Below are positions 13,202 to 54,280 of a stretch of DNA of 56,638 nt, one piece after another; position 1 is the first letter of the stretch, and the number at the start of each line of letters is the position of its first letter. The position numbers were made by a program, and so were the translations under genes. The stretch is from positions 1 to 56,638 of the IMG/VR virus record IMGVR_UViG_3300009494_000003. One strand, given 5' to 3'. Under the pieces are notes generated by a model. It saw only the letters and a program-made list of their open reading frames with translations, made no database searches and was not told the origin of the DNA. Source of the stretch: a virus.

Positions 13202-13275
13202 GAGAGAAACACAGGAGGGAAGCTAATGAAGTGGTCAGAATTTTTAAAGGCTCTTGATTACACTGATAAAGAGGA
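13157..13275 (+). repeat. 119-bp direct repeat, copy 1
   Basis: This segment covers the end of DUF4116 gene 2, the ribosome site and the first 17 codons of DUF4116 gene 3. It recurs 958 bases downstream (14115-14233) with about one mismatch (C/T at 13173/14131). It marks a duplication of a gene junction. Confidence 0.85.
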
Positions 13276-14119
13276 GATGGAGGCGGTCAAGCACAATGGG
13301 TTCGCGCTTCAATACGTCCGGGAACCGACGTTGGAGTTGTGCATGGCGGCGGTTAAGCAAGATGGTTATGCGCTCGCATATGTAAAGGATCAAACCGAGG
13401 CGGTGTGCATAGCGGCGGTTAAGCAAGATGGGAAGGCGCTTCAATACGTCCAGGAACCGACGTTGGAGTTGTGCATGGCGGCGGTTAAGCAAGATGGTTA
13501 TGCGCTCCGACACGTCAAGGACCAGACGTTGGAGTTGTGCATGGCGGCGGTTAAGCAAGACGGGAAGGCGCTCCGATTTGTTAAAGACCAGACGTTGGAG
13601 TTGTGTATGGAGGCGGTTAAGCAAGACGGGAAGGCGCTTTTAGATGTGAAGAAGCAGACGCCGGAATTGTGTTTAGCAGTCGTGAGGCAAAATAGAGATG
13701 CGCTCCGATTTATCGATATGGGCGTTTTTGAGCCAGAAAGTAATGTTAACAAAGAAGCTCTTCGCCCCGAGTTTATCCAATTGCGCAAATGGGTTGGCGC
13801 AATGGATATCCGATTTGTTTCGTGGGAAGAGAGTGTTGAGGTAGAGATCAAGGCCGACCACGTAAACATATACCTGTACACAAATAAATATAAATACGCG
13901 ATTCAAGCCCGATGCAAGAGCCCAGACCGGTCCTCCTATCTTGGGTGTACTGTTGGGGGTCATGGCAAGTTTTCTGGTGGAAGGGACCTGGCGGATGGTG
14001 ACTTTTCAGAAGGCACGTGGCGTAAAATATTGTCCGATATCGTAAGCTGGGAGATGATCCCCGCTTCTACGGGGAGAACCCGGATAAACTGGGACAAGGC
14101 TTCTCCTGATCCTGTTTGA
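13226..14119 (+). CDS. DUF4116 repeat protein 3 with extra C-terminal domain
   Basis: 297 residues. Residues 1-165 are a cap (MKWSEFLKALDYTDKEE) and about seven DUF4116-type 22-residue repeats (AVKQDGKALRFVKDQTLELC). Unlike its neighbours it continues with about 130 residues of a different, beta-rich domain (SVEVEIKADHVNIYLYTN, YAIQARCKSPDRSS, GCTVGGHGKFSGG) ending in SWEMIPASTGRTRINWDKA. The stop codon lies inside the second copy of the 119-bp junction repeat, which suggests that the C-terminal domain was once followed by, or recombined with, another paralogue. Function unknown. Confidence 0.75.
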   Translation: MKWSEFLKALDYTDKEEMEAVKHNGFALQYVREPTLELCMAAVKQDGYALAYVKDQTEAVCIAAVKQDGKALQYVQEPTLELCMAAVKQDGYALRHVKDQTLELCMAAVKQDGKALRFVKDQTLELCMEAVKQDGKALLDVKKQTPELCLAVVRQNRDALRFIDMGVFEPESNVNKEALRPEFIQLRKWVGAMDIRFVSWEESVEVEIKADHVNIYLYTNKYKYAIQARCKSPDRSSYLGCTVGGHGKFSGGRDLADGDFSEGTWRKILSDIVSWEMIPASTGRTRINWDKASPDPV

Positions 14120-23462: not shown

Positions 23463-24109
23463 AACACGAGTGGGTACTGGTAGTGGATGCGAAGGTCCTG
23501 AATGAATTTCGTGGTCTGGACGATGGGCCGATCACAACGCTCCGGGCAGATATTGATCGGATTGTCGGAATTCTTGGGCGCTCGTTTTTCATGGCGCGAA
23601 GCGAAGCCGAGGAGGCACCTGAATACAAGCAGGTCATCCCCTATCTGATTATCTCCTCGGGTAGTACGTTTTTGACGTATCGACGTTCTGGGTCCGAGAA
23701 GCGCCTTACGGATCTTGTTTCTATCGGCATCGGGGGACACATAAATCTGGAAGACAGCGACGAGCGCAAGCTGGATGTCATCAAGAAGAATGTCCGGCGA
23801 GAGGTCTCGGAGGAGCTGAGACTCGTGGGCGTACCCGAGTTCTGGCAGGAGTTTCCGGATTGTTTTGCCACGGTGGGCATTCTCTATGATGGTTCGGATG
23901 ACGTGGGTCGAGTCCATCTTGGGATCGTCTTGCGCTGTGATGTCAGTCTCGGCACGGCTCAGAAAATCCGGCTGACGAACGAGGGCAAGGATCTTGAATG
24001 GAAGACGCTCAAGGAACTTGAAGCGGGATACGAACACCTGGAGGGCTGGTCTCAGATTTGCGTCAAGGCGCTTCCGTCTTTTTGCGCAGCGGACGCGGGA
24101 ATGGGATGA
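23447..24109 (+). CDS. Nudix hydrolase
   Basis: 220 residues. The Nudix box is present at about 95-125: GGHINLED..., then the key REVSEEL with the metal-binding glutamates and a closing LVG, slightly longer than the classical 23-residue box. Members hydrolyse nucleoside diphosphates linked to another group, for instance to clean the nucleotide pool or to release NAD- or cap-like products. It overlaps the previous gene by 16 bases and ends in ATGA with the methyltransferase leader, so it belongs to the same operon. Confidence 0.75.
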   Translation: MAKELKHEWVLVVDAKVLNEFRGLDDGPITTLRADIDRIVGILGRSFFMARSEAEEAPEYKQVIPYLIISSGSTFLTYRRSGSEKRLTDLVSIGIGGHINLEDSDERKLDVIKKNVRREVSEELRLVGVPEFWQEFPDCFATVGILYDGSDDVGRVHLGIVLRCDVSLGTAQKIRLTNEGKDLEWKTLKELEAGYEHLEGWSQICVKALPSFCAADAGMG

Positions 24110-25251
24110 TCTCGTTGAAGGAAAAAATCGTTGGCGCGTGCAGGGGTGGCGCGAGTGAGGCGAACATGAAGTACGCAGAAACGCAAAAACAACGGGAAGG
24201 GGAAGTGATGGGTGCCGTTTATTACAACGATAATGATAAACATTGCTGCGATTGGCTGAGAAATCTGATTGATGCTGACTTGATTTCCGATGGTTATGTG
24301 GATGAGCGAGGAATTGAGGATGTGCGTTCTCTTGAAGAATTTGATCGGGTGCACCTGTTTGCAGGCATCGGCGGATGGGAATATGCACTTGACCTTGCTT
24401 GCTGGCCTTCAAACCTGAAGGTCATGACGGGAAGTTGTCCGTGTCAACCTTTCTCTATCGCAGGAAGGCAAAAAGGAGTTAAAGATGAACGACACCTCTG
24501 GCCAAAAATGCTCAGGCTCATTAAAGAGTCAGGAGTTAACTACATCTTTGGCGAACAAGTTGCAAGCCCTCTTGGAAGGGCATGGCTCGCCAGAGTACAA
24601 ACTGACTTGGAAGCAGTGGGTTATACCTTCGGGGCTTCGGATTTGTGCGCTGCGGGCATCGGTGCCCCACACATCCGTCAAAGACTGTACTGGGTGGCCT
24701 ACTACGACGGGCGAAGACGGAAAAACGGATGGCCCAAAAACAATGCAAAGAATGAAAATTTGTTTAGCACAGGGGAAGGTATTTCCAACGAGTGTACAAC
24801 GTCTTCGCAATATAGTTCAATTAACGGGATGGCCCACAGCGAGGGCGCAGGAAGATGGGCGAACGCTGGCACAGTACGCAAGTGCTCGGATGCGTGCATA
24901 CGAGAAACGAAAGGGGAAGACGCGGGATGGACCCTCCTCCAAACAAGGCGGCCTCTCGATTGCGGTTCAATTAACCTCTTCTCTCCCTGGAACGCCACCA
25001 CTCACATTCTCTGCGCAGACGGAAAAGCACGGCGTATTGAATCCGGCTCTGAGCCTTTGGTTACAGGGGTTCCCTTCCGATTGGCTGATGGCCGCACCCG
25101 TGAGGACGCCTCGCGGTCGCAAGTCCTCAAAGGCATAGGCAATAGCATCGTTCCGCTTCTGGCAGCGGTGTTTATACGGGCTTTCATGGAGAGCGTTGGT
25201 ATTTATCCGATAGGGGTAAAAGCGGGTGCCCAGGATCAGGAAGGTCAATGA
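24106..25251 (+). CDS. dcm: C5-cytosine DNA methyltransferase
   Basis: 381 residues from the ATG at 24106 (ATGA overlap with Nudix); the true catalytic protein may start at 24208 (MGAVYYNDND), since the first 34 codons are a mosaic of sequences copied from elsewhere. Motif I is HLFAGIGGWE (about 82-91), motif IV GSCPCQPFS with the catalytic Cys (about 107-115), motif VI the variant GEQV (about 148), and motif VIII IGAPHIRQRLYWVA (about 184). KGIGNSIVPLLAAVF (about 345) is motif X. The target-recognition part between is short and overlaps another long open frame (24485-25138). Expected to methylate cytosine at C5 against host restriction. Confidence 0.85.
   Translation: MISLKEKIVGACRGGASEANMKYAETQKQREGEVMGAVYYNDNDKHCCDWLRNLIDADLISDGYVDERGIEDVRSLEEFDRVHLFAGIGGWEYALDLACWPSNLKVMTGSCPCQPFSIAGRQKGVKDERHLWPKMLRLIKESGVNYIFGEQVASPLGRAWLARVQTDLEAVGYTFGASDLCAAGIGAPHIRQRLYWVAYYDGRRRKNGWPKNNAKNENLFSTGEGISNECTTSSQYSSINGMAHSEGAGRWANAGTVRKCSDACIRETKGEDAGWTLLQTRRPLDCGSINLFSPWNATTHILCADGKARRIESGSEPLVTGVPFRLADGRTREDASRSQVLKGIGNSIVPLLAAVFIRAFMESVGIYPIGVKAGAQDQEGQ
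24136..24185 (+). repeat. Copy of the glycosylase-gene 3' segment
   Basis: 47 of 50 bases match 16641-16690. It lies directly after a copy of the SLKEKIV gene start (24106-24140) and just before a 19-base exact copy of the GGGAAGGGGAAGTGATG joint found at 17479-17497 (here 24192-24210), making a three-piece mosaic leader. Confidence 0.8.
24485..25138 (+). CDS. Overlapping gene nested in the methyltransferase gene, WPT-repeat protein
   Basis: A 217-residue open frame in the +1 frame inside the C5 methyltransferase gene. It has its own ribosome site, AAGGAG (24473-24478), six bases before the ATG. The product is Ser/Thr/Trp/Arg-rich, with features that read like a conserved protein: ALLEGHGSPEYKLTWKQW, ICALRASVPHTS, repeats of GWPT (CTGWPTTTGEDG, LTGWPTARAQEDG) and a tail LNPALSLWLQGFPSDW. 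I believe similar segments occur in many phage methyltransferase loci, but cannot verify it here. If made, it is a second product of the same DNA. Function unknown. Confidence 0.55.
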   Translation: MNDTSGQKCSGSLKSQELTTSLANKLQALLEGHGSPEYKLTWKQWVIPSGLRICALRASVPHTSVKDCTGWPTTTGEDGKTDGPKTMQRMKICLAQGKVFPTSVQRLRNIVQLTGWPTARAQEDGRTLAQYASARMRAYEKRKGKTRDGPSSKQGGLSIAVQLTSSLPGTPPLTFSAQTEKHGVLNPALSLWLQGFPSDWLMAAPVRTPRGRKSSKA

Positions 25252-25273
25252 CCTCGTTGAAGGAAAAAATCGT
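25231..25273 (+). repeat. 43-bp direct repeat flanking the second methyltransferase, left copy
   Basis: Matches 27461-27503 with one mismatch (G/A). The repeat spans the end of a coding frame (QDQEGQ), the AAGGT ribosome region and the start codons MTSLKEKIV. The two copies bracket exactly the second methyltransferase gene. Confidence 0.85.
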
Positions 25274-25322
25274 TTTAAGTTGCAACACGATGTATTTGTG
25301 CCACATCCGAGGAGAAGCATGA
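25248..25322 (+). pseudogene. Stub of the DnaC-like gene start
   Basis: ATG 25248 reads MTSLKEKIV, as in the DnaC-like loader at 27478, then diverges and stops after 24 codons. The stop TGA overlaps the methyltransferase ATG at 25319 (ATGA), so the stub acts as a coupled leader, just like the DUF4116 stub at 14184. Confidence 0.65.
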
Positions 25323-27481
25323 GGGGTACATTATTCACAGGTGACTGCGTGCAGATCATGGAGACCATGGATGAGAGTTCCGTGGACGCGGTTGTGACCG
25401 ATCCTCCCTATGGATTGGAGTTCATGGGCCGGGAGTTTGATAAGCTCGGTAAGGGTACGGCACAGAGGGCGTGGCATGCACGGTGGGCGAAGCAGGCCCT
25501 GCGAGTCTTGAAACCCGGGGGTTATCTACTCGCGTTTGGGGGCACCAGAACTTATCATCATCTGGCGACTGCCGTGGAGGAAGCCGGGTTTGAGATCCGT
25601 GATATGATCCAGTGGAATTATGGGTCGGGATTTCCCAAATCGTTGAATATTGGGAAGGCGATTGACAAGGCGGCGGGGGTGGAGCGTGAGGTGATTGGGC
25701 ATGAAAGCAAGATACCGGAGCGACCCATAACGGACAATTGGAAGCGGGCTGCAACAACTCCAACCGAAATGCCGCTGCCGGGTCAAGGAAGCAATTCAGG
25801 GTGTGTCCGTATCATAACCGCCCCCGCAACCGAAGCCGCGAAGCAATGGGACGGATGGGGCACGGCGTTGAAGCCCGCAAACGAGCCAATCTTATGGGCA
25901 ACAAAGCCCCTGATTGTGGTTCCCCCAGGTGATATGATACAGGCAGCCAACCTGATTGGAGGTTTGATATGCCTGTCACTATCATCTGTGAAACATGTGG
26001 AGAGTCTTTTGATGTCAAGCCCTAACGGGTGCGAAGGGGATGTCGCTTTTGCTCTATGGCGTGCCGTCGAGTATCGTTCAAGCGAATTTCCAGAGTCATC
26101 AGGGGTGACGGATATGTTCAAATCACCGGAGGTGGCAGAAACTATCTTGAACATCGTCAAGTTATGGCGGATAGTTTGGGACGCAAACTTCGCACGGCAG
26201 AACACGTTCACCACATCAATGGCGACAGGGCTGACAACCGAATTGAAAACCTTCGTATCATTGATGTTGCCGATCATACAAGAATGCATCACCCCGGCAG
26301 GCATGAAGGCACTTGGTCAACCCTCGTATGTGAACATTGCGAGATCGAATTTGAGCGAGCAAACATCTACATCCAACGCCGTAACTTCTGCTCACGAGCT
26401 TGCTACGTTGCTCATGGGGCGAAATGGTGCGAGCGATGTGGGGCAGAGTTTCACGCATGCGGCACACGTCGCAAGTACTGTTCTGCAAAATGCTACCACG
26501 AGTCTAGGCGAAAATCTTAGTCCCGCCCATGAACCAATTGTTGTAGCCAGGAAGCCCTTGAGCGAGAAGACCGTGGCGGCGAACGTGTTGAAGCATGGGA
26601 CAGGCGGGATCAACATTGATGGGTGTAGGGTGGAAATTTCTTCTAACGATGTCATATATGCTAAGAATCCTCACACACAAAATACAGGCTCAAAAAACAG
26701 TAGTTCAATAACACTGGGTGAGGGAGCAAGTTACAAAGTACCCAAAGGTCGCTGGCCTGCGAACGTTTTATTTTCGCACCATCCAGATTGCGAATGTGTT
26801 GGGACGAAGAAGGTGAAGGGTAGTCAGCTGTCTCAGGTTATCAAGCGGAGTAATAGCGGTAGTGAATCAATAGGTAAACAGACGGACAGTTATTGCGAAG
26901 GTTTTACAGACGATGACGGCAACGAAGAAGTAGAAGCTTGGAATTGTCACCCTGATTGTCCGGTGGGGGTCCTGGACAAGCAGAGTGGAGTATTGAAGAG
27001 TGGAAAGCCAACTAAGGGAAAAGAGGAAACGACCAAAGATATTTATGGGAAATATGCAAAACGCTCCTTAGTTGGTGGAGGGGATTCTGGTGGTGCCTCC
27101 CGCTTTTTCTACCAGGCCAAGGCGAGTAGGTCCGAGCGGAACGTAGGCACTGAGGATCTCTTTTGGAGGAGGACGAAGGAGACTCCAAGTGGATACACGC
27201 AAGTCACGCGAGAGGAATGGGAGGTCCTGGATGAGAAGAAGCGTGCGGTGGGCAACATTCACAGCACGGTGAAGCCGGTCGACCTTATCGGGTATTTGAT
27301 CCGGCTCGTGGTTCCCCCAGGTGGAATCGTACTCGATCCTTTTTGCGGCTCAGGCACGGTGTTCCCTGCGGCAGTCAAAGAACAGGTCAAGGTGTTGGCC
27401 ATAGAGAAGGACGAACAGTACTCGGTAATCTCAGAAGCCAGGGCCTCCCATGCGTTTGCGCAGGATCAGGAAGGTCAATGA
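25319..27481 (+). CDS. Beta-class DNA (adenine-N6 or cytosine-N4) methyltransferase with inserted HNH frame
   Basis: 720 residues from the ATG at 25319, which has GAGGAG just upstream; a GTG at 25226 is in frame but overlaps the previous gene. Motif order is that of a beta-class enzyme: TDPPYGLEF near residue 25 (motif IV) and DPFCGSGTVFPAAV near 672 (motif I), with STVKPVDLIGYLIRL before it. Residues about 199-400 are a Ser/Thr/Ala-rich block not needed for catalysis; it coincides with an HNH endonuclease in another frame and is flanked by a 14-codon imperfect repeat (KPANEPI / SPAHEPI). The final residues QDQEGQ lie in the 43-bp direct repeat. Confidence 0.82.
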   Translation: MRGTLFTGDCVQIMETMDESSVDAVVTDPPYGLEFMGREFDKLGKGTAQRAWHARWAKQALRVLKPGGYLLAFGGTRTYHHLATAVEEAGFEIRDMIQWNYGSGFPKSLNIGKAIDKAAGVEREVIGHESKIPERPITDNWKRAATTPTEMPLPGQGSNSGCVRIITAPATEAAKQWDGWGTALKPANEPILWATKPLIVVPPGDMIQAANLIGGLICLSLSSVKHVESLLMSSPNGCEGDVAFALWRAVEYRSSEFPESSGVTDMFKSPEVAETILNIVKLWRIVWDANFARQNTFTTSMATGLTTELKTFVSLMLPIIQECITPAGMKALGQPSYVNIARSNLSEQTSTSNAVTSAHELATLLMGRNGASDVGQSFTHAAHVASTVLQNATTSLGENLSPAHEPIVVARKPLSEKTVAANVLKHGTGGINIDGCRVEISSNDVIYAKNPHTQNTGSKNSSSITLGEGASYKVPKGRWPANVLFSHHPDCECVGTKKVKGSQLSQVIKRSNSGSESIGKQTDSYCEGFTDDDGNEEVEAWNCHPDCPVGVLDKQSGVLKSGKPTKGKEETTKDIYGKYAKRSLVGGGDSGGASRFFYQAKASRSERNVGTEDLFWRRTKETPSGYTQVTREEWEVLDEKKRAVGNIHSTVKPVDLIGYLIRLVVPPGGIVLDPFCGSGTVFPAAVKEQVKVLAIEKDEQYSVISEARASHAFAQDQEGQ
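25871..25912 (+). repeat. 14-codon imperfect repeat, left side of HNH insertion
   Basis: Encodes KPANEPILWATKPL; the right copy at 26519-26560 encodes SPAHEPIVVARKPL. The offset is 648 bases, exactly 216 codons, so the inserted block keeps the methyltransferase frame. Confidence 0.7.
25969..26520 (+). pseudogene. HNH homing-type endonuclease nested in the methyltransferase gene, nonsense at codon 19
   Basis: In the frame other than the methyltransferase's, an ATG at 25969 follows a perfect GGAGG (25958-25962). It reads a zinc-knuckle start (CETCGESFDVKP) and then meets TAA at 26023-26025, where related proteins usually have Tyr. The frame resumes at once: CRFCSMACRR, YLEHRQVMADSLGRKL, the HNH core HVHHINGDRADNRIENL, and two more Cys pairs (CEHCEIEF ... 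CSRAC; CERCGAEF ... CSAKC), ending at TAG 26518-26520. A GTG at 26029, four bases after the stop, could permit reinitiation, giving 163 residues. It is an endonuclease element, damaged or expressed by reinitiation. Confidence 0.7.
26519..26560 (+). repeat. 14-codon imperfect repeat, right side of HNH insertion
   Basis: Right partner of 25871-25912. It begins on the last bases of the HNH stop codon, so the endonuclease frame ends exactly where the methyltransferase resumes. Confidence 0.7.
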
Positions 27482-29695: not shown

Positions 29696-30640
29696 ATGGT
29701 CGATCCTCAATCGTATATTCTGTCGAAATTTCCTGATAAATCGCCTAATTCGGCTGGCGAGATACACGCGTCCTGTCCGTTCCATGATGATCGCAATCCA
29801 AGTTTTTCAATCAACGTAGAGCGCGGTGTCTTTGTTTGCGGCTCGGGTCGGTGCGGGGTTCGCGGCAATTTTGCTCTTTTTTACAAGATGATGGAGAACA
29901 TTACCTCCTGGCGTGAGGTCTATGAACGCCTGAAGGTGAACCGGATCGCGCTCGACATCGAAGAGCTGTTGGCCACCAAACCCGTGGGGCAAAAGCAGTA
30001 CGAAGTCAGTCAATTTCCTGCCGCGCCACACGCATGGGTCGAGGAGATCGGCCACATCGCGTATCTCGATGAACGCGGCCTGGGAAAAGACGTGATCGAC
30101 GCCTACGGGCTCCTCTACGGGCGTCTGGGTGCCTCGGCCAACATCGGCATTACGGACTCGATAATTCTACCCGTGTACGACCTCAACGGCGCGTACCTGA
30201 CGTTCCAGGTGCGCTACCTGAGTCCAACATCCCGGTTACGGTGGCGCACGCCCTCGAATTCGCCTATCCAGCGTCTCCTCTATGGTGGCTGGATCATCCC
30301 GTGGAATCGGGATCGGCAATTGTGGATAGTTGAGGGCGCGAGCGATGTCTGGGGGCTCTTTAGGCACGGTGTGCAGAGCGTGGGTCTTTTTACCAAAGCT
30401 GCGTCGGATGCGCAGCTGAACCGTGTTGCTGAAGTATGTCGCGATTTTGGTCTGATTCCCGTCGTGTGCCTCGATGGAGACGCTATAACCGACAGTAAAG
30501 ACTTTGGGCAGGTCATCCAGCACGAGCTTATCGCCTCGGGCCTGGATGCCCGTCTTGTTCACCTGGAGCGCCATGAGGATCCGGGCGCTCTACCAGCGGA
30601 GAGACTGGCGTCCCTGCGTCAGGAACTCGGAGAAATGTGA
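29696..30640 (+). CDS. DnaG-like primase (CHC2 zinc finger + TOPRIM)
   Basis: 314 residues. A CHC2-type zinc domain opens the protein: CPFHDDRNPSFSI (about 27-39) and CGSGRCGVRGNF (about 48-59). The centre (about 125-190) is the primase core (YGLLYGRLG, ITDSIILPVYD, TFQVRYLSP). TOPRIM motifs are WIVEGASDVWGL (about 209-220) and VCLDGDAITDSKD (about 256). It would synthesise RNA primers for the phage polymerase. It is shorter than bacterial DnaG and lacks the C-terminal helicase-binding domain. The 3' end contains a 25-base sequence repeated in the next gene. Confidence 0.8.
   Translation: MVDPQSYILSKFPDKSPNSAGEIHASCPFHDDRNPSFSINVERGVFVCGSGRCGVRGNFALFYKMMENITSWREVYERLKVNRIALDIEELLATKPVGQKQYEVSQFPAAPHAWVEEIGHIAYLDERGLGKDVIDAYGLLYGRLGASANIGITDSIILPVYDLNGAYLTFQVRYLSPTSRLRWRTPSNSPIQRLLYGGWIIPWNRDRQLWIVEGASDVWGLFRHGVQSVGLFTKAASDAQLNRVAEVCRDFGLIPVVCLDGDAITDSKDFGQVIQHELIASGLDARLVHLERHEDPGALPAERLASLRQELGEM
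30583..30607 (+). repeat. 25-bp repeat shared with 30847-30871
   Basis: An exact copy of this stretch from the primase 3' end lies 264 bases downstream, directly before the imported DUF4116 leader in the next gene. It probably marks the recombination joint of that import. Confidence 0.75.
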
Positions 30641-31521
30641 TGCAGAACGAAGATACCTTATCCGGGCGAAGGCAAGAGTCCATATCCATAATTCATAATG
30701 CAATTGCTGGCGCGAAGATTTTGGCATTCGAGTTGGACGTATCTCATCGGGATTCAAAAGTTATAATGAAAGCGTGTCTGAGCATCGAAGGCGGAAGGAA
30801 GCTGATATACGACATGGACACCGGACACATTACCTTTGAGGACAGCGGGCGCTCTACCAGCGGAGAGACTGACGCAAGTACGTCAAAACCTCGAAAGAGA
30901 AACACAGGAGAAAAACTGATGAAACTGTCAGAATTTTTACAGGCCGTTGGAGACGAAGCGTCTGCAATAATAAATTATGTTGGAGAGGAGGCTTTAAAGG
31001 CCGTCAAGCAAGACGGAGACGCGCTCAAGTACGTGAAGGACCAGACGCCCGAAATCTGTACCGAGGCCGTTAAGCGTAACGGATACGCGCTCAAGTACGT
31101 GAAGGACCAGACGCCCGAAATCTGTACCGAGGCCGTTAAGCGTAACGGATACGCGCTCAGGTACGTGAAGGACCAGACGCCCGAAATCTGTACCGAGGCC
31201 GTTAAGCGTAACGGATACGCGCTCAAGTACGTGAAGGACCAGACGCCCGAAATCTGTACCGAGGCCGTTAAGCGTAACGGATACGCGCTCAGGTACGTGA
31301 AGGACCAGACGCCCGAAATCTGTACCGAGGCCGTTAAGCGTAACGGATACGCGCTCAGGTACGTGAAGGACCAGACGCCCGAAATCTGTACCGAGGCCGT
31401 CAAGCAAGACGGAGACGCGCTCAAGTACGTGAACAAAAGTATTTTTGAGCCGGATGGCAACACAAAAACCAAGCAACCGTGTCCGCGATGTAATGGAACG
31501 GGTATCGTGGAGGAAGCCTGA
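30640..31521 (+). CDS. Chimeric DUF4116 repeat protein (internal start at 30919 likely)
   Basis: 293 residues from ATG 30640 (overlapping the primase stop). Residues 1-70 are an unrelated domain (ISIIHNAIAGAKILAFELDV). Then comes a piece (SGRSTSGETDASTSKP) that copies the junction before DUF4116 gene 2, except that the old stop TGA is now CGA, fusing the frames. The AGGAG ribosome site and the start MKLSEFLQAVGDEAS at 30919 are kept, so a 200-residue protein can also be made. The repeats are six near-identical 66-base units (KDQTPEICTEAVKRNGYALK). The C-terminus has a zinc-knuckle (CPRCNGTG). Function unknown. Confidence 0.7.
   Translation: MQNEDTLSGRRQESISIIHNAIAGAKILAFELDVSHRDSKVIMKACLSIEGGRKLIYDMDTGHITFEDSGRSTSGETDASTSKPRKRNTGEKLMKLSEFLQAVGDEASAIINYVGEEALKAVKQDGDALKYVKDQTPEICTEAVKRNGYALKYVKDQTPEICTEAVKRNGYALRYVKDQTPEICTEAVKRNGYALKYVKDQTPEICTEAVKRNGYALRYVKDQTPEICTEAVKRNGYALRYVKDQTPEICTEAVKQDGDALKYVNKSIFEPDGNTKTKQPCPRCNGTGIVEEA
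31036..31431 (+). repeat. Tandem 6 x 66-bp coding repeat
   Basis: Six 22-codon units, nearly identical in DNA, differing mainly at one Lys/Arg codon (AAG/AGG). The order of variants (K, R, K, R, R) suggests duplication of a two-unit block. Such low divergence means recent expansion or ongoing gene conversion, and copy number is expected to vary between isolates. Confidence 0.95.
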
Positions 31522-37109: not shown

Positions 37110-38300
37110 TTGAACGGTGAATGGAATATTTTTGAAGGCGACTGCATTGAGGTGATGCGGCGCATGGAACCTCAGTCGGTCCATTGCTGCGTCACGTCGC
37201 CGCCTTATTTTGGGCTCAGAGATTATAAGGTTGATGGACAAGTTGGCCTTGAGCAAACGCCTGAAGAATACGTTGCCAAGCTGGTCGAGGTGTTTCGTGG
37301 AGTTTGGAATGTGTTGAGGGATGACGGAACTCTTTGGTTGGTCATTGGTGATTCCTATGCAAGCGATACGAAGTGGGGCGGTACAACCGGGGGCAAACAC
37401 GCAGCTGGACTCTACGGAGCTACTGGATTAGGACGCAACCATACTCGATCAGGATTGCCAGATAAGAATCTAGTTGGCATCCCCTGGCGGGTTGCGCTCG
37501 CGCTTCAGGCCGACGGGTGGTATCTTCGTAGTGACATAATTTGGGCCAAGTTGAATCCGATGCCGGAATCAGTAAGGGACAGGCCAACAAAATCCCACGA
37601 GTACATTTTCTTGCTGACAAAGAAACCTAAGTACTTTTATGATCAGGAGGCAGTGAAGGAAGATGCAGTAGGGGGGACAAAAGGTAAGGGTGCATCATTT
37701 AAGCGCGAGGGGAGTAAACGCGAGGCACCGAATCCTGGTCACTCAATGGGAACCCATCGTCCAGATAGAGATGATGTAGCTTACAACGGACCTAAGCGAA
37801 ACAAACGCGATGTGTGGGTGGTTGCGACACAACCGTTTAGGGGTGCGCACTTTGCAGTGTATCCACCGAAGTTGATTGAGCCTTGTATTTTGGCGGGGGT
37901 GCCCAAGCACTGTTGCCCTGTTTGCGGTGCTCCCTGGGTGCGGGTTGTGGAACGCCCAAAGATTGAACGTTCTGCCGAGGTTGGCCCGAGGAAACAAGAT
38001 GGGGGTTTGACCAGTAAGGCCGGGATGGATCGTACTGGTTTGTCACACTTTAAATATAATGAATGGCTGAGAGAAAACTCGTCTCGAACAGTTGGGTGGA
38101 AGCCTTCTTGTGGATGCAACGCGGGTGCTACAGCAGGCACAGTGCTTGACCCATTCTGTGGCACAGGAACAACAGGGGTGGTTGCTGTGCCTATGGGGTA
38201 TAATTTTAAAGGCATTGATTTGAATCCTGAGAGTGTGGAAATGGCTCGCAGGAGGATTACTGACACTTTGAGAAAGGAAGCTAGCTATGTCAAAAGATGA
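37110..38300 (+). CDS. Beta-class DNA methyltransferase, TSPPY type (N4-cytosine likely)
   Basis: 396 residues with a TTG start at 37110 behind GAGGAG. Motif IV is VTSPPYFGLRDY (about 27-38); the TSPPY form is typical of N4-cytosine enzymes, although adenine enzymes exist. Motif I comes late: DPFCGTGTTGVVA (about 346-358) and GIDLNPESVEMARRRI. A Cys pair (CCPVCGAPW, about 268) and CGCNAG (about 335) may bind zinc. It is the third methyltransferase in the window. The end overlaps the next gene by 14 bases. Confidence 0.85.
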   Translation: MNGEWNIFEGDCIEVMRRMEPQSVHCCVTSPPYFGLRDYKVDGQVGLEQTPEEYVAKLVEVFRGVWNVLRDDGTLWLVIGDSYASDTKWGGTTGGKHAAGLYGATGLGRNHTRSGLPDKNLVGIPWRVALALQADGWYLRSDIIWAKLNPMPESVRDRPTKSHEYIFLLTKKPKYFYDQEAVKEDAVGGTKGKGASFKREGSKREAPNPGHSMGTHRPDRDDVAYNGPKRNKRDVWVVATQPFRGAHFAVYPPKLIEPCILAGVPKHCCPVCGAPWVRVVERPKIERSAEVGPRKQDGGLTSKAGMDRTGLSHFKYNEWLRENSSRTVGWKPSCGCNAGATAGTVLDPFCGTGTTGVVAVPMGYNFKGIDLNPESVEMARRRITDTLRKEASYVKR

Positions 38301-44864: not shown

Positions 44865-45875
44865 ATGGCCAAGAAGAAAAAAACAGAGGCAGAGCCCGCA
44901 GCACCCAGTCGCACGGTTGATATCTTGAAAAAGGTGCAGTCGATTCCGGGACTGATGACCCTCGATTCGACCAAGATTGAGAATGTTCCACGAATTTCTA
45001 CGGGCATTCTCAGTCTCGATCTTGCTCTCGGTGGGGGCTATCCCCACGGGCGTATTATCGAGTTTTTTGGTTCTGAGGGGTCAGGTAAGACGACGGCCAC
45101 GCTTCACGCCATTGTCGCAGCGCAGCGAAATGGGGGTGTCGCGGCCTTCATCGACGCGGAGCACGCACTGGACAAAGCTTACGCAGCCCGGATCGGCGTA
45201 AATTTTTCTGATTTGCTCTTTGGCCAACCGGATAGTGGGGAAGAGGGCCTGGAGATGGTGGACGCCCTGTGTTCCAACATGAAGGGCGGCGACCTTGTTG
45301 TTATCGATTCGGTAGCGAATCTTGTGCCCAAGGTTGAGCTTGACGGGGATTATGGCGATTCTCATGTCGGCCTCCAGGCGCGAATGATGTCGCAAGCCAT
45401 GAGAAAGATGACTTCATTGGTATCGAAGCGCGGTGTGACAGTCATTTTTATCAACCAGATTCGGATGAAGATCGGTGTCATGTTCGGATCGAACGAAACG
45501 ACTACCGGAGGACGCGCGCTCAAGTTCTACGCCACGCAGCGCATCGAAGTGAAGCCCATGGGGCGTTCCAAGGCGGGTGACACCATCATCGGCATGAAGG
45601 CGAGATTCAAGGTGGTCAAAAACAAGGTTGCGCCACCCTTCAGGGAGGCCGAGGTTGAGCTTCGGTTCGGCCAGGGTTTTCCACGTTCGCTGGATCTTCT
45701 TCGAGTTGGTTCTACCGGCAATGTAGGTGTCATCGAGAAGGCCGGTGCGTGGTACTCGTACAAGTCCGAGCGTTTGGGTCAGGGCATTGAGAACTCGGCT
45801 GTAACGTTGGAGGCCAACCCGGCGCTCATGGCGAAGATTGAGCAAGAGGTCCTCGAACGCTACGAAAAGATTTAA
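44865..45875 (+). CDS. recA: RecA recombinase
   Basis: 336 residues after GGGGAGG. RecA motifs in order: [16 protein letters not shown] (about 48-63), Walker [12 protein letters not shown] (about 67-77), [11 protein letters not shown] (about 96), [11 protein letters not shown] (Walker B, about 145), [20 protein letters not shown] (about 183-202) and [18 protein letters not shown]. It has a short Lys-rich leader and no acidic C-terminal extension. It pairs homologous DNA and works with the neighbouring ssDNA-binding protein and SbcCD. Confidence 0.95.
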
Positions 45876-45876
45876 T

Positions 45877-46986
45877 ATGACGAACTCTTCAACTGATTTC
45901 ATCCGCTTCCTTGTGTACAGCGACATACATCACAGCCGTCTGGCTGCACGTTGTATCACGTTGGAGGACACACTGAGTATCGAACGCGCGGTTCACCAGC
46001 GTGTCATCGACGCCGGGTTTCATTTTTCGGTGTTCTGCGGCGACCGGTTCCTCAAGCGCGAGCCCGAGGATGAGGTCAAGGTCAGGGCTGACAGGGTCCT
46101 TGGGGAGATGCTCCGGGCACGTCCGGGCATCCCGCACTATCACCTGATCGGCAATCACGATTGGACCAAGAACAGCCGGGAGTGGCACACGTCGGAATCG
46201 TTGAAGGATCTTGAGAATCTCATTGTCTTGGACAAGCCAATAAGTGTCGCGGGGAAGGGTTATGCGGTTCACGCGTTGCCCGCCGACGTGCCTTTCGACA
46301 TGGCGAACTATGCGGCACACCATGGGCTCAACCTCTTCTTGTTCCACGGAATTGTGAAGGGCTCGTTTATGGAGGATGATGGTGACCGCACGTTCAAGGA
46401 CGGCATCGATGCTCGTGAGATCGACCGTCCCGAATGGGACCTTGTTTGTGCGGGGGATCTCCACGTGCCCCAGCAATTGAACTTCCAGAACACGCGCGGG
46501 GGTTACGCAGGGTCTGTTCTTCAGCGTACACGGGCCGATGCTGATAGGCAGCGCGGATGGCTGGAGGTGTCCGCAACTCGGAATGGTGATACCTGGGATG
46601 TTCAGACCGAGTTCGTCCCGACACGAAATTTCTTTCATAGAGAGACCATTGAGGTCGGCCCAGAAACCCAGTACAGCACGATTGTCATTGATGAGCAGGC
46701 TGTGCAGGATATGGCTGTTGAGGTCCGGCTTGTCGGCCATCGTGCTGATGTGGATCGCGTGGCGGATGATGAGCGTTGGAAGAACTATACGGACCTCCTG
46801 ATGGCCCGGAGTATCGAGGTTATCCGTGATTACCAGGTCGAGCAGAACGAGGCCGTGGTGGACATGAGCGCGTCGCAGAGTGTATTTGGTGATCTTGAGC
46901 TGTACCTGGAGAGTGGTTTTGCGAATATCGGGAATTTGTCGAAGGACAAAATTTTTGAGATGCTTCGAAAGATGCAGGAGGCATGA
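45877..46986 (+). CDS. sbcD: SbcD/Mre11-like nuclease (gp47 type)
   Basis: 369 residues from ATG 45877; the earlier in-frame ATG at 45838 lies in recA. The metallophosphoesterase motifs are complete: VYSDIHHS (about 12), FCGDRF (about 55), IGNHDW (about 91), LFHGIVKG (about 153) and CAGDLHVPQ (about 188). It lacks the usual DxxxxGD spacing of small phosphatases, but fits gp47/SbcD. It partners the ATPase at 47933, separated by four small genes. End resection of double-strand breaks is the expected job. Confidence 0.85.
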   Translation: MTNSSTDFIRFLVYSDIHHSRLAARCITLEDTLSIERAVHQRVIDAGFHFSVFCGDRFLKREPEDEVKVRADRVLGEMLRARPGIPHYHLIGNHDWTKNSREWHTSESLKDLENLIVLDKPISVAGKGYAVHALPADVPFDMANYAAHHGLNLFLFHGIVKGSFMEDDGDRTFKDGIDAREIDRPEWDLVCAGDLHVPQQLNFQNTRGGYAGSVLQRTRADADRQRGWLEVSATRNGDTWDVQTEFVPTRNFFHRETIEVGPETQYSTIVIDEQAVQDMAVEVRLVGHRADVDRVADDERWKNYTDLLMARSIEVIRDYQVEQNEAVVDMSASQSVFGDLELYLESGFANIGNLSKDKIFEMLRKMQEA

Positions 46987-47679: not shown

Positions 47680-47939
47680 TGAGTAAAAACGGACCGGATG
47701 GAACCCTCTTCTCACCGGATGGTGCCGTGTTGGATCAGGATCACACTCTTCTTTTCAGTCTTGCGCTTTTACCTCCTTGCAGGATTGCGTACACTGATTC
47801 TTGTATCGTGACACAGTCATCGGAGAGTGGGGACATTAGACGCACGCACGCGGCTCACGTAGGTGTTAACGGTGGTCTAGAGGAAGCGAAGAAGTGTGTC
47901 TGTGAAATGATCGACCGGATGTGGGAGCAGCGATGTTGA
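47679..47939 (+). CDS. Hypothetical protein, 86 residues
   Basis: Starts at ATG 47679, overlapping the upstream stop. Sequence MSKNGPDGTLFSPDG then a mixed strand region (HTLLFSLALLPPCRIAYTD) and a Cys-containing helix (EEAKKCVCEMIDRMW). No recognisable family. Its end overlaps the SbcC gene start. Confidence 0.45.
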   Translation: MSKNGPDGTLFSPDGAVLDQDHTLLFSLALLPPCRIAYTDSCIVTQSSESGDIRRTHAAHVGVNGGLEEAKKCVCEMIDRMWEQRC

Positions 47940-50023
47940 CCATTCGCTACATCAACCCAACAGGTTTTTTCAGCTACGGCAAGTCTGCCAATGTCGACAT
48001 CGAATGCCGAGGTCTCGTGAACCTTATTGGAATAAATCACGACACCGGCGGCGACTCGAACGGTTCTGGCAAGTCCAGCCTATTCAATGCCATGTGCGAG
48101 ATTCTCTACGGAGAGAACCCGACCGGCGTGAGTGGAAATGGCGTGGTCAATGGCGTACTGAGCCAGGGCTATGCCGGACGCGTGGAGTTCATCTCATGGG
48201 AGGGCGTTTACTATCGTGTGACCTCCTGTCGTGACTGGAAACAGGATTTCTATGCCGTGGATGCCAACACGGAGATTGCATACAAGGGGACGGACTTGTA
48301 CTTCGAGAAGTACGAGGGCGAGCAGTGGATCGACAAGCGGGGTGCGCGCATGTCTGAGACACGGAAGGACATTCTGAAGGCCCTGGGCATCACGTATACG
48401 CGCTTCCTGTCGATCTCTTACCTGAACCATCAGGTGGGCTCACGTTTCCTGCGCGGGACGAACAAGGAGCGTGTGGACATCCTGGCGGGCATTACCGGAG
48501 TTGAGGAGTGGGATCGAATTCTTTCGGGTTGTCGCACGGAGAAGAACGCGCGGGCCAAGAAGGTTGAAGAGGCCGAGCGTACGATTGCGTATGAACGCGG
48601 GGCACTGGAACAACTGCGTACACAACTTCAGCAGTTCAAGCAGACGGATTGGAGCGCCCAGGTGGTCAAATACGAGGCTCGGATCGAAGATGCCGAGGCG
48701 GCAGCTTTGAACCTCGGGGCTGACATCGATAAGCTCACGGCGCACGCGGAAACGCTCTCGCAGCAACAGCAGGAGATTTATTCGAAGTCCGGCATCACCG
48801 AGCTTTCTCAGGAAATTTCGGACCTGGCAGCCGAGGAGGCACGGTTGCGAAATCCGGGAAACCTGGAGGATAATCTCCCGGGTTTCGATCCGGTCATTGA
48901 GCAGCGGTTGCAGGACGCCCGGTCCGCTTTGGATACTGCTCGCGGGGAGGTCGCGGCTTTTTCCAGAGGGGGAGGTCTTCAAACCCTGGAGACTTGTCCT
49001 ACGTGTGGAGTGAGCATAGAGAAGTGTTCTGCGTGCGGGGCTGACATTGTCCAGGTCAGGAAGGCTGAGAGAGAGAAACAGCTCACCAACCTTCAGGACA
49101 AGGTCAAGAGCCTTGAGGGTATTCATCGGGAGGCTCTTACCAGCCGGGACGAGTACACCGCGCGCATGCAGGATGCACGGGCACAGGCGTATGCGGAGAT
49201 GAAGTTGAAGGCTGATAAAATTGCGCAACAGATTGAGACATTGCGCACGCGGATGAAGACGAGTAGTTCGGAGTACGAGCGCCTGACTGAGGAGATTCGC
49301 CAGGTTGGTGTCCAGGTCTCCCAGGTTCGCAGTAAACAGTCTTCGGTCCAGAGTGAGGTCGGCACCTACAGGCTTTGGGTTCAGCAGGCGCAGAAGGCCA
49401 TGGCAGATGCCGAGAGTCTTCAGGCCGATGTCGATAAGAAGTTGGCCACGATTGCCGGTATGGAATCCGGTATTTCCCGCTCAGAAGCCGGTCTCCTGGT
49501 GCTGGATTGGCTTATTTCGAACATCCCTTACATCAAGCTACATCGCCTTTCTTTGACAATGTCTGCGCTTTCCGAAAAAGTGAATCGTTATTTGGCGGAT
49601 ATGGGAGATACGATCCGGGTCAACATTTCGTCGTTCGAGGAGAAGAAGTCAACGCGCGGGGCCGGGGACTCGAAGGATCTGTTGAAATCTGATGTCAAGG
49701 TTGAGGTCATAGACGGCGAGAAGAACATTGATCCGCGCCTGTACTCGGGTGGTGAGACGGCCAAGATTTCCAATGCGTTGATTCGTGCACTGCACGAAAT
49801 GGCCCTCCAGGGCGGCCAGGGCTGCAATGTGATCCTACTTGATGAGATTTTCGCGTTTGTGGACATGACGAACTCACAGCGGATTGTGGATGGCCTTACG
49901 AGTATCTGTGCCGCGACAACGTTGGTGACGGACAACAGTGGACATGTCAACGATTTGCTGCCGTTCAATGAAGTTTGGACGGCGCGGAAACAAAATGATA
50001 TTACTACGTTGGAGGTGCAGTGA
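47933..50023 (+). CDS. sbcC: SbcC/Rad50-like ATPase (gp46 type)
   Basis: 696 residues from ATG 47933. ATPase head: TGFFSYGKSANVDIE and GSGKSSLFNAM (Walker A, about 43). Long coiled coils (about 190-330 and 380-510) surround a zinc hook at about 355-367, CPTCGVSIEKCSACG, which has two CxxC pairs rather than the single one of standard SbcC, so the hook may bind zinc within the monomer. The C-terminal head has the ABC signature YSGGETAKI (about 603) and Walker B VILLDEIFAFVD (about 632). It forms the nuclease complex with the 45.9 kb protein. Confidence 0.88.
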   Translation: MLTIRYINPTGFFSYGKSANVDIECRGLVNLIGINHDTGGDSNGSGKSSLFNAMCEILYGENPTGVSGNGVVNGVLSQGYAGRVEFISWEGVYYRVTSCRDWKQDFYAVDANTEIAYKGTDLYFEKYEGEQWIDKRGARMSETRKDILKALGITYTRFLSISYLNHQVGSRFLRGTNKERVDILAGITGVEEWDRILSGCRTEKNARAKKVEEAERTIAYERGALEQLRTQLQQFKQTDWSAQVVKYEARIEDAEAAALNLGADIDKLTAHAETLSQQQQEIYSKSGITELSQEISDLAAEEARLRNPGNLEDNLPGFDPVIEQRLQDARSALDTARGEVAAFSRGGGLQTLETCPTCGVSIEKCSACGADIVQVRKAEREKQLTNLQDKVKSLEGIHREALTSRDEYTARMQDARAQAYAEMKLKADKIAQQIETLRTRMKTSSSEYERLTEEIRQVGVQVSQVRSKQSSVQSEVGTYRLWVQQAQKAMADAESLQADVDKKLATIAGMESGISRSEAGLLVLDWLISNIPYIKLHRLSLTMSALSEKVNRYLADMGDTIRVNISSFEEKKSTRGAGDSKDLLKSDVKVEVIDGEKNIDPRLYSGGETAKISNALIRALHEMALQGGQGCNVILLDEIFAFVDMTNSQRIVDGLTSICAATTLVTDNSGHVNDLLPFNEVWTARKQNDITTLEVQ

Positions 50024-51267: not shown

Positions 51268-51756
51268 ATGGCCGAGCCCACCCCCATCTACTTCCCCGAA
51301 GATGACGACCCTCTGCATTTCGTAGTCATCAGCAAGCCCTGGGTTCAGAAGAACAATACACAGATCAGATACCGCAATCCCCGCCAAAAGACAGGGGCTT
51401 TTGTCGATCATGCTGAAGACATGAAGGCCGCGAGGCAGCGGATGTCGAGGCTGGTTTACGATCAATATTGTGCCCAGGGGAGATCCTCACCAATAGATTA
51501 CTTAATCTTTGCCAATCTGGTATTTTATGTGAGTAGGAGTCACGAACCTGATCTTGATAATCTCCCTGCATTCGTCTACGACGCCATGCAGGGGATTAGC
51601 GTAAAAGGTGTTAGGGGTTTGAAGGTGGCCCAGGTCCTGGTAGATGATAAACTGTTGCGAGAACAACATAGTCGCAAAATTGTAGAGGGAGACATTGGTT
51701 ATGACGGAGAACCCAGAACAGAAATCACAATCAGACGATACAAAGACGCCAGGTGA
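51268..51756 (+). CDS. rusA: RusA-type Holliday junction resolvase
   Basis: 162 residues. RusA motifs: SRSHEPDLDNLPAFVYDAM (acidic metal-binding residues, about 90-108) and VLVDDKLLREQHSRKIV (about 122-138), then the terminal strand GEPRTEITI. RusA cuts four-way junctions with paired acidic residues. It follows recA and sbcCD in the recombination block. The overlap with the following chaperone gene is 56 bases or more. Confidence 0.75.
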   Translation: MAEPTPIYFPEDDDPLHFVVISKPWVQKNNTQIRYRNPRQKTGAFVDHAEDMKAARQRMSRLVYDQYCAQGRSSPIDYLIFANLVFYVSRSHEPDLDNLPAFVYDAMQGISVKGVRGLKVAQVLVDDKLLREQHSRKIVEGDIGYDGEPRTEITIRRYKDAR

Positions 51757-52963
51757 GCCCCCTGCGATGATTGTCGAGCCTCTGGCTCCCCCGTACCGGA
51801 TAGTCCTATACTTCGAGTACGAGGCACTTAAGGCGAAGCTGGACGCGTTCTGGGACAAGCACGGGCTTGGGCTCATTGAGAAGTTCAAGATCAAGACCAA
51901 GAAGGAGAAGGGCGGCGCGCAGCCGAATGCCCGTAAGTTGCTGGAGAAGCGAATCAGACCCAGCAAACTCTACGGATCCGTGCTCTCTGAGATCGTCACC
52001 GACAAGGTTGAGGATGATATCATGTTTCTGGAGGGACTGGAGCTGTTCAACTATCCCCCAGGCAAGGATAATCCCTGGCCTCAGTTGGTCGCCGTGGTCT
52101 ACTTTGTGCCCGATCTGAAGATGAGGGGGACTCTCAATTGGGGCGCAAAGCATCCGCCGATCCCGCCCGAGGAGGAAGAATGGGAGCGTCGGCAGCAGGA
52201 GGTTCAACGTCAGTACCGGGTGATTGAACCCGATGAGGAAGCCACCGACATTACCATGGATCACCAGGTCCTTCTCGATGTCACGGCTAGCATCGAGGGT
52301 GAGCCTTATGCACATGGCACATTCCAGGGCCAGTGGCTCGAAGTAGGCGTCCTGTCCATCCCCGAGCTGAAGGACGCGCTGCTGGAGCACGCGCGCGGCG
52401 ATCTGTTCGAAACCAGGTTCGAACCCCAGCGTGATCCGGAAGTCCTGGGCAAGACTGTGGACGCCGTGGTCAAGGTTCATGACCTCAAGTTTATCAAGGT
52501 ACCTGAAATCGATGACGAGCTGGCAAAGGACGCGGGCTTTGATGACATGAAGGATTTTCGAAAGCGCTTTCACCAGGATTATGAAAAGTACATAAAGAAC
52601 GCGAGGCAGGCGACGGCAACTGATCACATCCTGGGTCAGATCATGATGCAGTCCAGGGTCCCGGCCTTTCCCGAGGAGTGGATCAATCGCAATGTCGAGC
52701 GCATGATTGAAGAACATCTCAAGCAATTCAAAGGTGATCGCCTGCGCGGCATGGCTGTGCTCGGGGTGAAGGACGAGGATAAGTTCCAGCAGGCTTTCAA
52801 GGGCCAACTGTACCGGGATTACATGCAGCAGCTGGCGGTGCGCACGTATTGTAAGATGCACAAGATTGATAAACAGGGTTCAGACGAGATGTTCGAGAGC
52901 ATCTTGTCTCAAGTGAAATGGATTCAAAATGAAAAAGAAACAGTGGAAGCAGTGGGCGGTTGA
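51701..52963 (+). CDS. Trigger-factor-like chaperone
   Basis: 420 residues from ATG 51701 (a TTG at 51695 is also in frame). It shows the three trigger-factor domains: N-terminal beta/alpha part (about 1-135), PPIase-like middle (about 180-255: DHQVLLDVTASIEGEPYA, ELKDALLEHARGDLFE) and the C-terminal chaperone arms (VPEIDDELAKDAGFDDMKDFRKRF, about 265-290; VPAFPEEWINRNVERMIEEHL). The conserved ribosome-docking GFRxGK loop is missing; instead there is a basic loop (KIKTKKEKGGAQPNARKLL, about 65-85). So it may fold phage proteins without binding the ribosome in the normal way. Phage trigger factors are rare. Confidence 0.7.
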   Translation: MTENPEQKSQSDDTKTPGEPPAMIVEPLAPPYRIVLYFEYEALKAKLDAFWDKHGLGLIEKFKIKTKKEKGGAQPNARKLLEKRIRPSKLYGSVLSEIVTDKVEDDIMFLEGLELFNYPPGKDNPWPQLVAVVYFVPDLKMRGTLNWGAKHPPIPPEEEEWERRQQEVQRQYRVIEPDEEATDITMDHQVLLDVTASIEGEPYAHGTFQGQWLEVGVLSIPELKDALLEHARGDLFETRFEPQRDPEVLGKTVDAVVKVHDLKFIKVPEIDDELAKDAGFDDMKDFRKRFHQDYEKYIKNARQATATDHILGQIMMQSRVPAFPEEWINRNVERMIEEHLKQFKGDRLRGMAVLGVKDEDKFQQAFKGQLYRDYMQQLAVRTYCKMHKIDKQGSDEMFESILSQVKWIQNEKETVEAVGG

Positions 52964-53360
52964 TCATATCCGGGCCACAGAACGGTGCCCCGGTGATCAT
53001 CCTTCATTCGGGGTAGCAACCGACTTGGTAACTCAAGAGGAGTTCCAGAGCAGCGTTCAGGCCGGTGGGACCCATCCGTACAATGATTGTCACTTCTTCG
53101 ATGAAGTGACGGGAACCGCGCCCCCTGCGGGCATGAAACGGATTGAGACGGATGATCCAAAGATCACTGAACGCGACAAGAAGTCCGTGGAGGAGGCTCT
53201 GACAGGTGATCAGGACTTGAAGACCGTGGAGCAGCTGAAGCGAAACCTGGGTGTGTATATCAACATGATCAGGTTCAAGGCTCCTGGTGTTCTGTACGTG
53301 CCGGAACCGCTGCTCAAGGTGGATGCATACATCAAGAAGTTTTTCGACTCAGGAGCGTGA
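52929..53360 (+). CDS. Hypothetical protein
   Basis: 143 residues, starting 35 bases inside the chaperone gene. A Lys/Trp-rich start (MKKKQWKQW) is followed by a Cys/His region (RCPGDHPSFG, HPYNDCHFFDE), then an acidic helix (DKKSVEEALTGDQDLKT) and a helical end. Metal binding is possible. Unknown. Confidence 0.45.
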   Translation: MKKKQWKQWAVDHIRATERCPGDHPSFGVATDLVTQEEFQSSVQAGGTHPYNDCHFFDEVTGTAPPAGMKRIETDDPKITERDKKSVEEALTGDQDLKTVEQLKRNLGVYINMIRFKAPGVLYVPEPLLKVDAYIKKFFDSGA

Positions 53361-54280
53361 TGCCTGTTTTCTGCGATTCTCCCGGGTGTGCCCAGTCGTT
53401 GCCTGACAATGGGTTTCGACGTGGAGCCCGTGGCTATGCTTTCTGCGATACGTGCAGGGCTGCACACTCCTACCGGGTACTCCTTACTCAGGTCTACCAT
53501 GAGGAGCCCATTGTTGATGTGATCCTTTCGGCCAGCAAGTTCAAGACCGCGAGTGGTATGGCCGATTACATCGGTGTTTCGTTCGTGACCATCTATCATT
53601 GGATCAAGCGGTACTTCAATTGCACGTTCCAGGAGTTCCGGCGCACCCACATCTGTAAGCAGCGGGGAGAGAAGTGCTACCTGCTGGACATTACAAGATC
53701 ATCGTACTCGCGCCATGACTACGTGCTGAAGAAGATCAGGAGCAAGCGGTACTGTGCGTGCATCAATGCGCTTGAAAACAACCTGATCATGACCAATGCG
53801 CCCATCCCCATTGTCCAGTCCATCTTGCGAGGGAAGCCCGCGATTGATCAGATTTCGGACGGAACATTTGCGCTCGTGCCCACGCCCGTGTATTTCGAGC
53901 ACGCCAAGACTCCCGTGTATTTCGATATACATTCGAAACGATCTGCGGGAGTCGTGGCTCAGCCTGAAGCCAAGTCCCGCGCCGCCCCCATGCCTTCGCG
54001 GGTCCGGAAGACCGTGCCTCAAAAGGTTGTATGCCGTGAGGCTTTAAACTTCAGACAGCGCGTGTTCGTGACCCTCCACAGGCTCGGAGGTCGTGTAGAG
54101 GTAGCGAAGCTTGTTGAACATTTGCGGACCGCCGGGGGCAATATTCCGCGAGCTAACAACACACGGCGCGAAGTTTACAGGAATTCCGGGCTCCTTGAAT
54201 TTGATCCTACCGACCGCCAGGTGATGATCCTGACCCGTGCCGGGCAGAAGGAAGCCGCGTCGATCCTGGCTGATCTGTAG
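53360..54280 (+). CDS. Zinc-knuckle and HTH DNA-binding protein
   Basis: 306 residues from ATG 53360 overlapping the preceding TGA. N-terminal zinc pair CDSPGC ... FCDTCRA (about 5-33). A helix-turn-helix is likely at about 60-80 (ASGMADYIGVSFVTIYHWI). Basic segments follow (KKIRSKRYCACIN). The C-terminal part (ALNFRQRVFVTLHRLGGRVEVAKL, about 220) looks like a second winged helix. Transcription regulation is plausible; a hairpin follows the stop. Confidence 0.5.
   Translation: MPVFCDSPGCAQSLPDNGFRRGARGYAFCDTCRAAHSYRVLLTQVYHEEPIVDVILSASKFKTASGMADYIGVSFVTIYHWIKRYFNCTFQEFRRTHICKQRGEKCYLLDITRSSYSRHDYVLKKIRSKRYCACINALENNLIMTNAPIPIVQSILRGKPAIDQISDGTFALVPTPVYFEHAKTPVYFDIHSKRSAGVVAQPEAKSRAAPMPSRVRKTVPQKVVCREALNFRQRVFVTLHRLGGRVEVAKLVEHLRTAGGNIPRANNTRREVYRNSGLLEFDPTDRQVMILTRAGQKEAASILADL

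Follow-up and report, generated by a model that had tools for sequence, protein, structure and literature searches.

New bacterial proteins classically meet trigger factor as their first chaperone, and finding a gene for such a protein on viral DNA raises the question of what it does for a phage and whether it still works at the ribosome. The DNA analysed here, referred to as the window, is a stretch of 56,638 nucleotides (positions 1–56,638 of the IMG/VR record IMGVR_UViG_3300009494_000003). The initial annotation had described one of its genes as a trigger factor without the ribosome-docking signature.

A Remote Trigger Factor Derivative in Large Phages

The gene product, P0001, carries an extension that precedes the N-terminal domain:

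51701..52963, + strand: trigger-factor-derived protein P0001, ATG start, 420 aa; TIGR00115, E = 1.8e-28
51701..51793, + strand: N-terminal extension, about 30 residues ahead of the N domain; residues 1–30 with pLDDT 42–69, mostly low

Relatives of P0001 were found in three large phages, namely L018 (188.6-kb contig, 65% identity), L112 (192 kb, 45%), and L113 (158 kb, 36%), and L019 carries the same gene as L018. These sister genes likewise begin at an ATG; in the window, a TTG located 6 nt upstream of the ATG would add two residues. The extension ends in a conserved (I/V)EPLA..YR motif in the alignment of the four members.

P0001 matched the NCBIfam family TIGR00115 over residues 79–392 with a score of 99.5 bits, and its sisters reached 104.7, 116.2, and 82.0 bits, all below the equivalog cut-off of 180.2 bits. 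We classed P0001 as a trigger factor derivative and not as trigger factor proper. It was not recognised by Pfam profiles alone, Trigger_N was undetected throughout the lineage, and a phmmer search of PDB sequences returned no match, showing that P0001 and trigger factor are only remotely related at the sequence level. Two AlphaFold models were built, one from 11 homologues (mean pLDDT 81.9) and one from 44 homologues (mean pLDDT 89.8, pTM 0.74), and the three-domain fold of trigger factor was present in both. When these models were compared with solved structures using Foldseek, the best eight were all trigger factors (E ~1e-14 to 6e-11), the structures matched being 1w26, 2vrh, 3gty, 1t11, 3gu0, and 7zgi, with 309–446 columns aligned. 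The global TM-scores were modest (maximum 0.49), in line with what a flexible protein of several domains would be expected to give. The structure comparison suggested in the initial annotation thus showed a trigger-factor-like protein over its full length, including the N-terminal and PPIase domains. P0001 is a genuine trigger factor homologue, with a similarity far beyond chance.

The distribution of the gene is narrow. Among 27 viral contigs with near UvsX relatives, P0001 matches were found in only the two sister contigs, indicating that the gene is lineage-specific. No near kin of the window lineage was found in a scan of bacterial genomes, no P0001 match in plasmids, none in a single-sequence scan of viral contigs, and none at E ≤ 0.001 in the viral structure library BFVD. 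A phage trigger factor was also not found in the open-access literature surveyed.

Several other candidates were rejected. Five phage-labelled records (OR844993.1, MT838073.1, MT835572.1, MT838321.1, and MT839851.1) showed a bacterial gene context and are likely mislabelled bacterial DNA: clpP and/or clpX adjoin tig in four of the five, and a threonine-synthase-like gene lies upstream of the trigger factor gene in MT838321.1, these gene names being read from the ORFs. The trigger-factor-like matches of viral contigs L011–L014 and L017 resemble ordinary bacterial Tig and were kept as comparison only. Finally, phrog_26774, annotated as "unknown function", is not a phage-specific family but trigger factor itself, since E. 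coli Tig matches it over its full length at 2e-121.

Gene Neighbourhood of P0001

The following genes lie near that of P0001:

44865..45875, + strand: UvsX/RecA-like recombinase, upstream (phrog_97, E = 3.7e-83)
45838..46986, + strand: SbcD-like exonuclease subunit, upstream (phrog_100, E = 6.6e-11); conserved
47921..50023, + strand: SbcC-like exonuclease subunit, upstream (phrog_77, E = 4.8e-48); conserved in L018, L112, and L113
51268..51756, + strand: RusA-like Holliday-junction resolvase (phrog_140; PF05866, E = 3.9e-4, just under the cut-off)
52929..53360, + strand: 143-aa protein, its gene overlapping the trigger factor gene at the 3' end of the latter; L018 and L112 have homologues, whereas L113 had none detected
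53357..54280, + strand: conserved 307-aa protein, downstream; homologues in L018, L112, and L113, weak HTH hits only

The RusA assignment relies on PF05866, which was above the cut-off in all three sisters (E = 1.9e-7 in L112). The trigger factor gene begins before the RusA gene has ended, the two sharing 56 nt in the window and about 50–59 nt across all four genomes, and the trigger factor gene lies in the same neighbourhood in L018, L112, and L113. The 143-aa protein had no Pfam or PHROG match. The window also encodes a polymerase, a clamp loader, a primase, and a helicase, and thus represents a replication and recombination region. This context of UvsX, SbcD, SbcC, and RusA lends no support to the earlier suggestion that the protein serves virion proteins.

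The related 192-kb contig carries a divergent terminase large subunit gene (phrog_17415) and tail-fibre genes, and the markers PF03237, phrog_2, and PF04984 had no match in the large contigs. Unlike in the mislabelled bacterial records, no tig-clpP-clpX context was found around the window gene. P0001 is phage-encoded and does not stem from host contamination.

Transfer RNA genes were absent from the loci scanned. Elsewhere in the window, three proteins (12500–13201, 13226–14119, and 30637–31521) match the same two PHROGs, phrog_5925 and phrog_17056, whose function is unannotated, and form a repeated gene family. Three DNA methyltransferase genes (24058–25251, 25226–27481, and 37110–38300) are also present within the 56.6 kb.

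Replacement of the Ribosome-Docking Loop

The N-terminal domain of P0001 differs from that of bacterial trigger factor at its tip:

51884..51925, + strand: basic loop FKIKTKKEKGGAQP, residues 62–75, standing in the alignments where the GFRxGxxP docking signature belongs

In the alignment, VRIDGFRKGKVP of E. coli trigger factor is found opposite IKTKKEKGGAQP of P0001. The P0001 loop, KIKTKKEKGG, is basic, about two residues longer than its E. coli counterpart, and devoid of GFRxGxxP; in the model, it is flanked by helices 40–61 and 75–84, as in trigger factor. The corresponding loops are KIKARKQKGG in L018, KVKGKKAKGG in L112, and RVKTRKKKGG in L113, the exact register being uncertain in the last, and yield the consensus [VI]Kx[KR]KxKGG, located at the N-domain tip of all four members. 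The basic, longer loop described earlier in place of GFRxGK was thus confirmed by the alignments and extended to the whole lineage. GFRxGxxP is absent from the four proteins, whereas G[FYL][RK]xG was found in each of the 100 other trigger factors compared. Eighty of these were genomic sequences, Bacillota-leaning and picked by similarity to P0001 via other peptide patterns, and so were not selected for the docking motif. Five of the nine loop core positions (residues 64–72) are invariant among the four members, compared to 22.5% of positions protein-wide, which argues that the loop was replaced and held rather than just decayed.

Is this replacement a mere consequence of carriage by a phage? 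A scan of viral contigs, likewise unselected for the docking motif, revealed a second phage lineage of trigger factors in eight contigs of 54–266 kb (L102–L109). Its members retain a PG[FY]R[KP]GKA loop, arm 2, and, nearly all of them, the PPIase aromatics. Among three members tested, two exceeded the TIGR00115 cut-off and two were above the Pfam cut-off for FKBP_C, and Trigger_N was detected. Like the window gene, these genes lie in a large-phage replication block near SbcC, directly after a nuclease gene, starting 2–9 nt past a PD-(D/E)XK nuclease gene in all eight contigs; unlike it, they keep the docking loop, arm 2, and, in nearly all members, the PPIase aromatics. Phage carriage in itself therefore does not account for the loss of the docking loop. 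In the phylogeny, each of the two lineages formed a supported clade (100 each), the window lineage on a very long stem, and the joint origin of both was neither supported nor rejected (p-AU 0.498). Both contigs of the second lineage that were searched (records L103 and L109, handles G031 and G037), whose trigger factors have an intact docking loop, encode ClpP, which was not found in the window-lineage contigs searched.

An E. coli trigger factor with AAA in place of FRK occupies the slow, ribosome-bound state at 20%, down from 85% (PMC11725819). Judging from the aligned loops, proteins of the window lineage would lack the canonical contact of F44-R45-K46 with ribosomal protein uL23. The altered targeting proposed in the initial annotation fits the conserved replacement in all four members, but the ribosome contact may instead have been re-tuned. 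The latter is the strongest rival explanation: docking at the ribosomal tunnel exit would persist via a re-tuned basic loop, and the protein would act co-translationally on phage proteins, beside the host trigger factor or replacing it. The helix-loop-helix and the positive charge of the loop are retained, and a basic residue stands near the R45 position in all four members. The net charge per 20 residues is +6 to +9 in the window lineage, against a mean of +5 (range +1 to +8) in other trigger factors, and this strongly basic loop makes an rRNA contact possible. A precedent is found in algal chloroplasts, where TIG1 proteins have lost most of the docking motif, keeping just its first Gly and last Pro, with matching variation of the Rpl23 site (PMC9527764). 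These proteins share with P0001 a degenerate ribosome signature on a trigger factor fold, but they are organellar, track the variation of their own Rpl23, and have a full-length chaperone domain. Against re-tuned docking, both F44 and the GFRxG frame, which the second phage lineage keeps, are gone from all four members, and no L23 gene with whose product the loop could co-evolve was found in the phage contigs searched, the host ribosome being presumably ordinary. We consider re-tuned docking less likely than not.

Loss of the PPIase Pocket and Shortening of the C-Terminal Domain

Two further regions distinguish P0001 from bacterial trigger factor:

52256..52498, + strand: FKBP-like PPIase domain, residues 186–266; fold kept, pocket aromatics replaced
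52499..52924, + strand: C-terminal core; linker helix and arm 1 retained, arm 2 and tail cut down (alignment and model)

The PPIase domain of the P0001 model had a TM-score of 0.64 to that of E. coli trigger factor (1l1p, used for normalisation), but FKBP_C of Pfam was undetected in the window lineage, though found in the second one. The pocket positions of P0001 are V194, Y203, L223, and A255 (F168, F177, F198, and F233 in E. coli numbering). Across the four members, F168 is replaced by V, V, I, and V, F198 by L in each, and F233 by A in each, and Y221 is lost too. We take the replaced aromatics other than F198 to line the PPIase pocket of trigger factor as well. The single F198A substitution is reported to abolish the PPIase activity of trigger factor (PMC7804408), and proteins of the window lineage are predicted to be devoid of proline isomerase activity. 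This loss of the pocket had been overlooked in the initial annotation.

Arm 2 of E. coli trigger factor spans Asn358–Ala410 (boundaries taken from PMC5402958), and we counted how many of its 53 residues were aligned. The counts for the four members were 34 (P0001), 33, 28, and 23. None of the 22 residues of the E. coli C-terminal tail was matched in P0001, the model of which has a single short helix in the ordered part beyond residue 386. Trigger_C was detected by Pfam in two of the four members (L112 and L113). Thus, of the PPIase-like and C-terminal arm patterns noted earlier, the PPIase fold and arm 1 were recovered, but arm 2 is reduced and the last 22 residues are gone.

The host trigger factor binds ClpX and speeds up the degradation by ClpXP of a phage replication protein, lambda O (PMC7804408). 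P0001 might act as a decoy for, or modulate, some host machine served by trigger factor (e.g., its interaction with ClpXP or the site at the tunnel exit), shielding phage proteins from degradation or displacing host factors; as most of arm 2, a ClpX contact region according to the same study, is missing, it could compete without stimulating. However, without most of arm 2 the protein could just as well be unable to bind ClpX, and contigs of the second lineage, but not the window contig, encode ClpP. We regard such a role as very unlikely.

A Putative Dedicated Chaperone for Replication and Recombination Proteins

The replaced docking loop, together with the loss of the enzyme pocket and of one arm, makes a re-purposing away from the usual ribosome site probable. 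Compared to bacterial Tig (TIGR00115; E. coli 1w26/2vrh), with which it is homologous over about 300 residues, P0001 has kept the helix-loop-helix tip, the FKBP-like domain, the C-terminal core, and arm 1, but with 14–21% identity it lacks GFRxGxxP, the pocket aromatics, and the tail, has a short arm 2, and carries an N-terminal extension. A scenario to which we give close to an even chance is that a large-phage lineage acquired a bacterial trigger factor, kept its fold, and shed its general-purpose features.

The explanation that we tentatively prefer, with slightly less than even confidence and from sequence and predicted structure, is that the P0001 lineage is a trigger-factor-derived, non-catalytic binding chaperone, which has probably left the canonical ribosome site and whose clients may be phage replication or recombination proteins. 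A phage trigger factor without isomerase activity or the canonical uL23 contact would work as a cradle-like holdase or an assembly chaperone, and its clients would be a single phage protein or a small number of them, encoded in the same operon, the first candidates being RusA or the SbcCD/UvsX machinery, and its basic loop would direct it to the client or to nucleic acid. In favour of a dedicated chaperone are the loop, replaced yet conserved in all four members, the lost pocket, the short arm 2 (4/4), and the overlap with RusA (4/4). A specific client, the other target proposed in the initial annotation, is plausible.

Alternatively, P0001 may itself have come to bind nucleic acid as part of the phage recombination machinery, its lysine/glycine loop contacting DNA or RNA. 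The charge of the KxKKxKGG loop and the location of the gene within the UvsX-SbcCD-RusA block are consistent with this role, but the chaperone core and the FKBP-like fold are preserved and no known DNA-binding domain was detected in P0001; it appears as improbable as the decoy.

Returning to the dedicated chaperone, in all 12 phage genomes a nuclease gene (RusA or PD-(D/E)XK) immediately precedes the trigger factor gene or overlaps with it. A broader, and in our opinion unlikely, generalisation is that large phages use trigger factor as an operon-coupled assembly chaperone of recombination nucleases, the window lineage being wholly off the ribosome. The adjacency could also stem from nothing more than the compactness of an early operon.

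Plant Tig2 sets a precedent for the re-purposing of trigger factor. It too is a derivative that has an extended docking loop and took up another task, but it retained the opposite part: Tig2 consists of the ribosome-binding domain alone with GFR kept, whereas P0001 has kept the other domains and lost the motif (PMC11731035). With the present data, trigger factor joins the chaperones carried by large phages. A natural trigger factor without docking loop, isomerase pocket, and one arm, alongside a phage lineage with all three, offers a ready comparison, which bears on the parts needed for ribosome-independent chaperone work.

In the second lineage, we also observed that the DnaE-like polymerase gene of L103, L104, L105, and L109 matches in two pieces about 1.2–1.6 kb apart, split at approximately residue 412 or 800; these interruptions are possibly inteins or introns.
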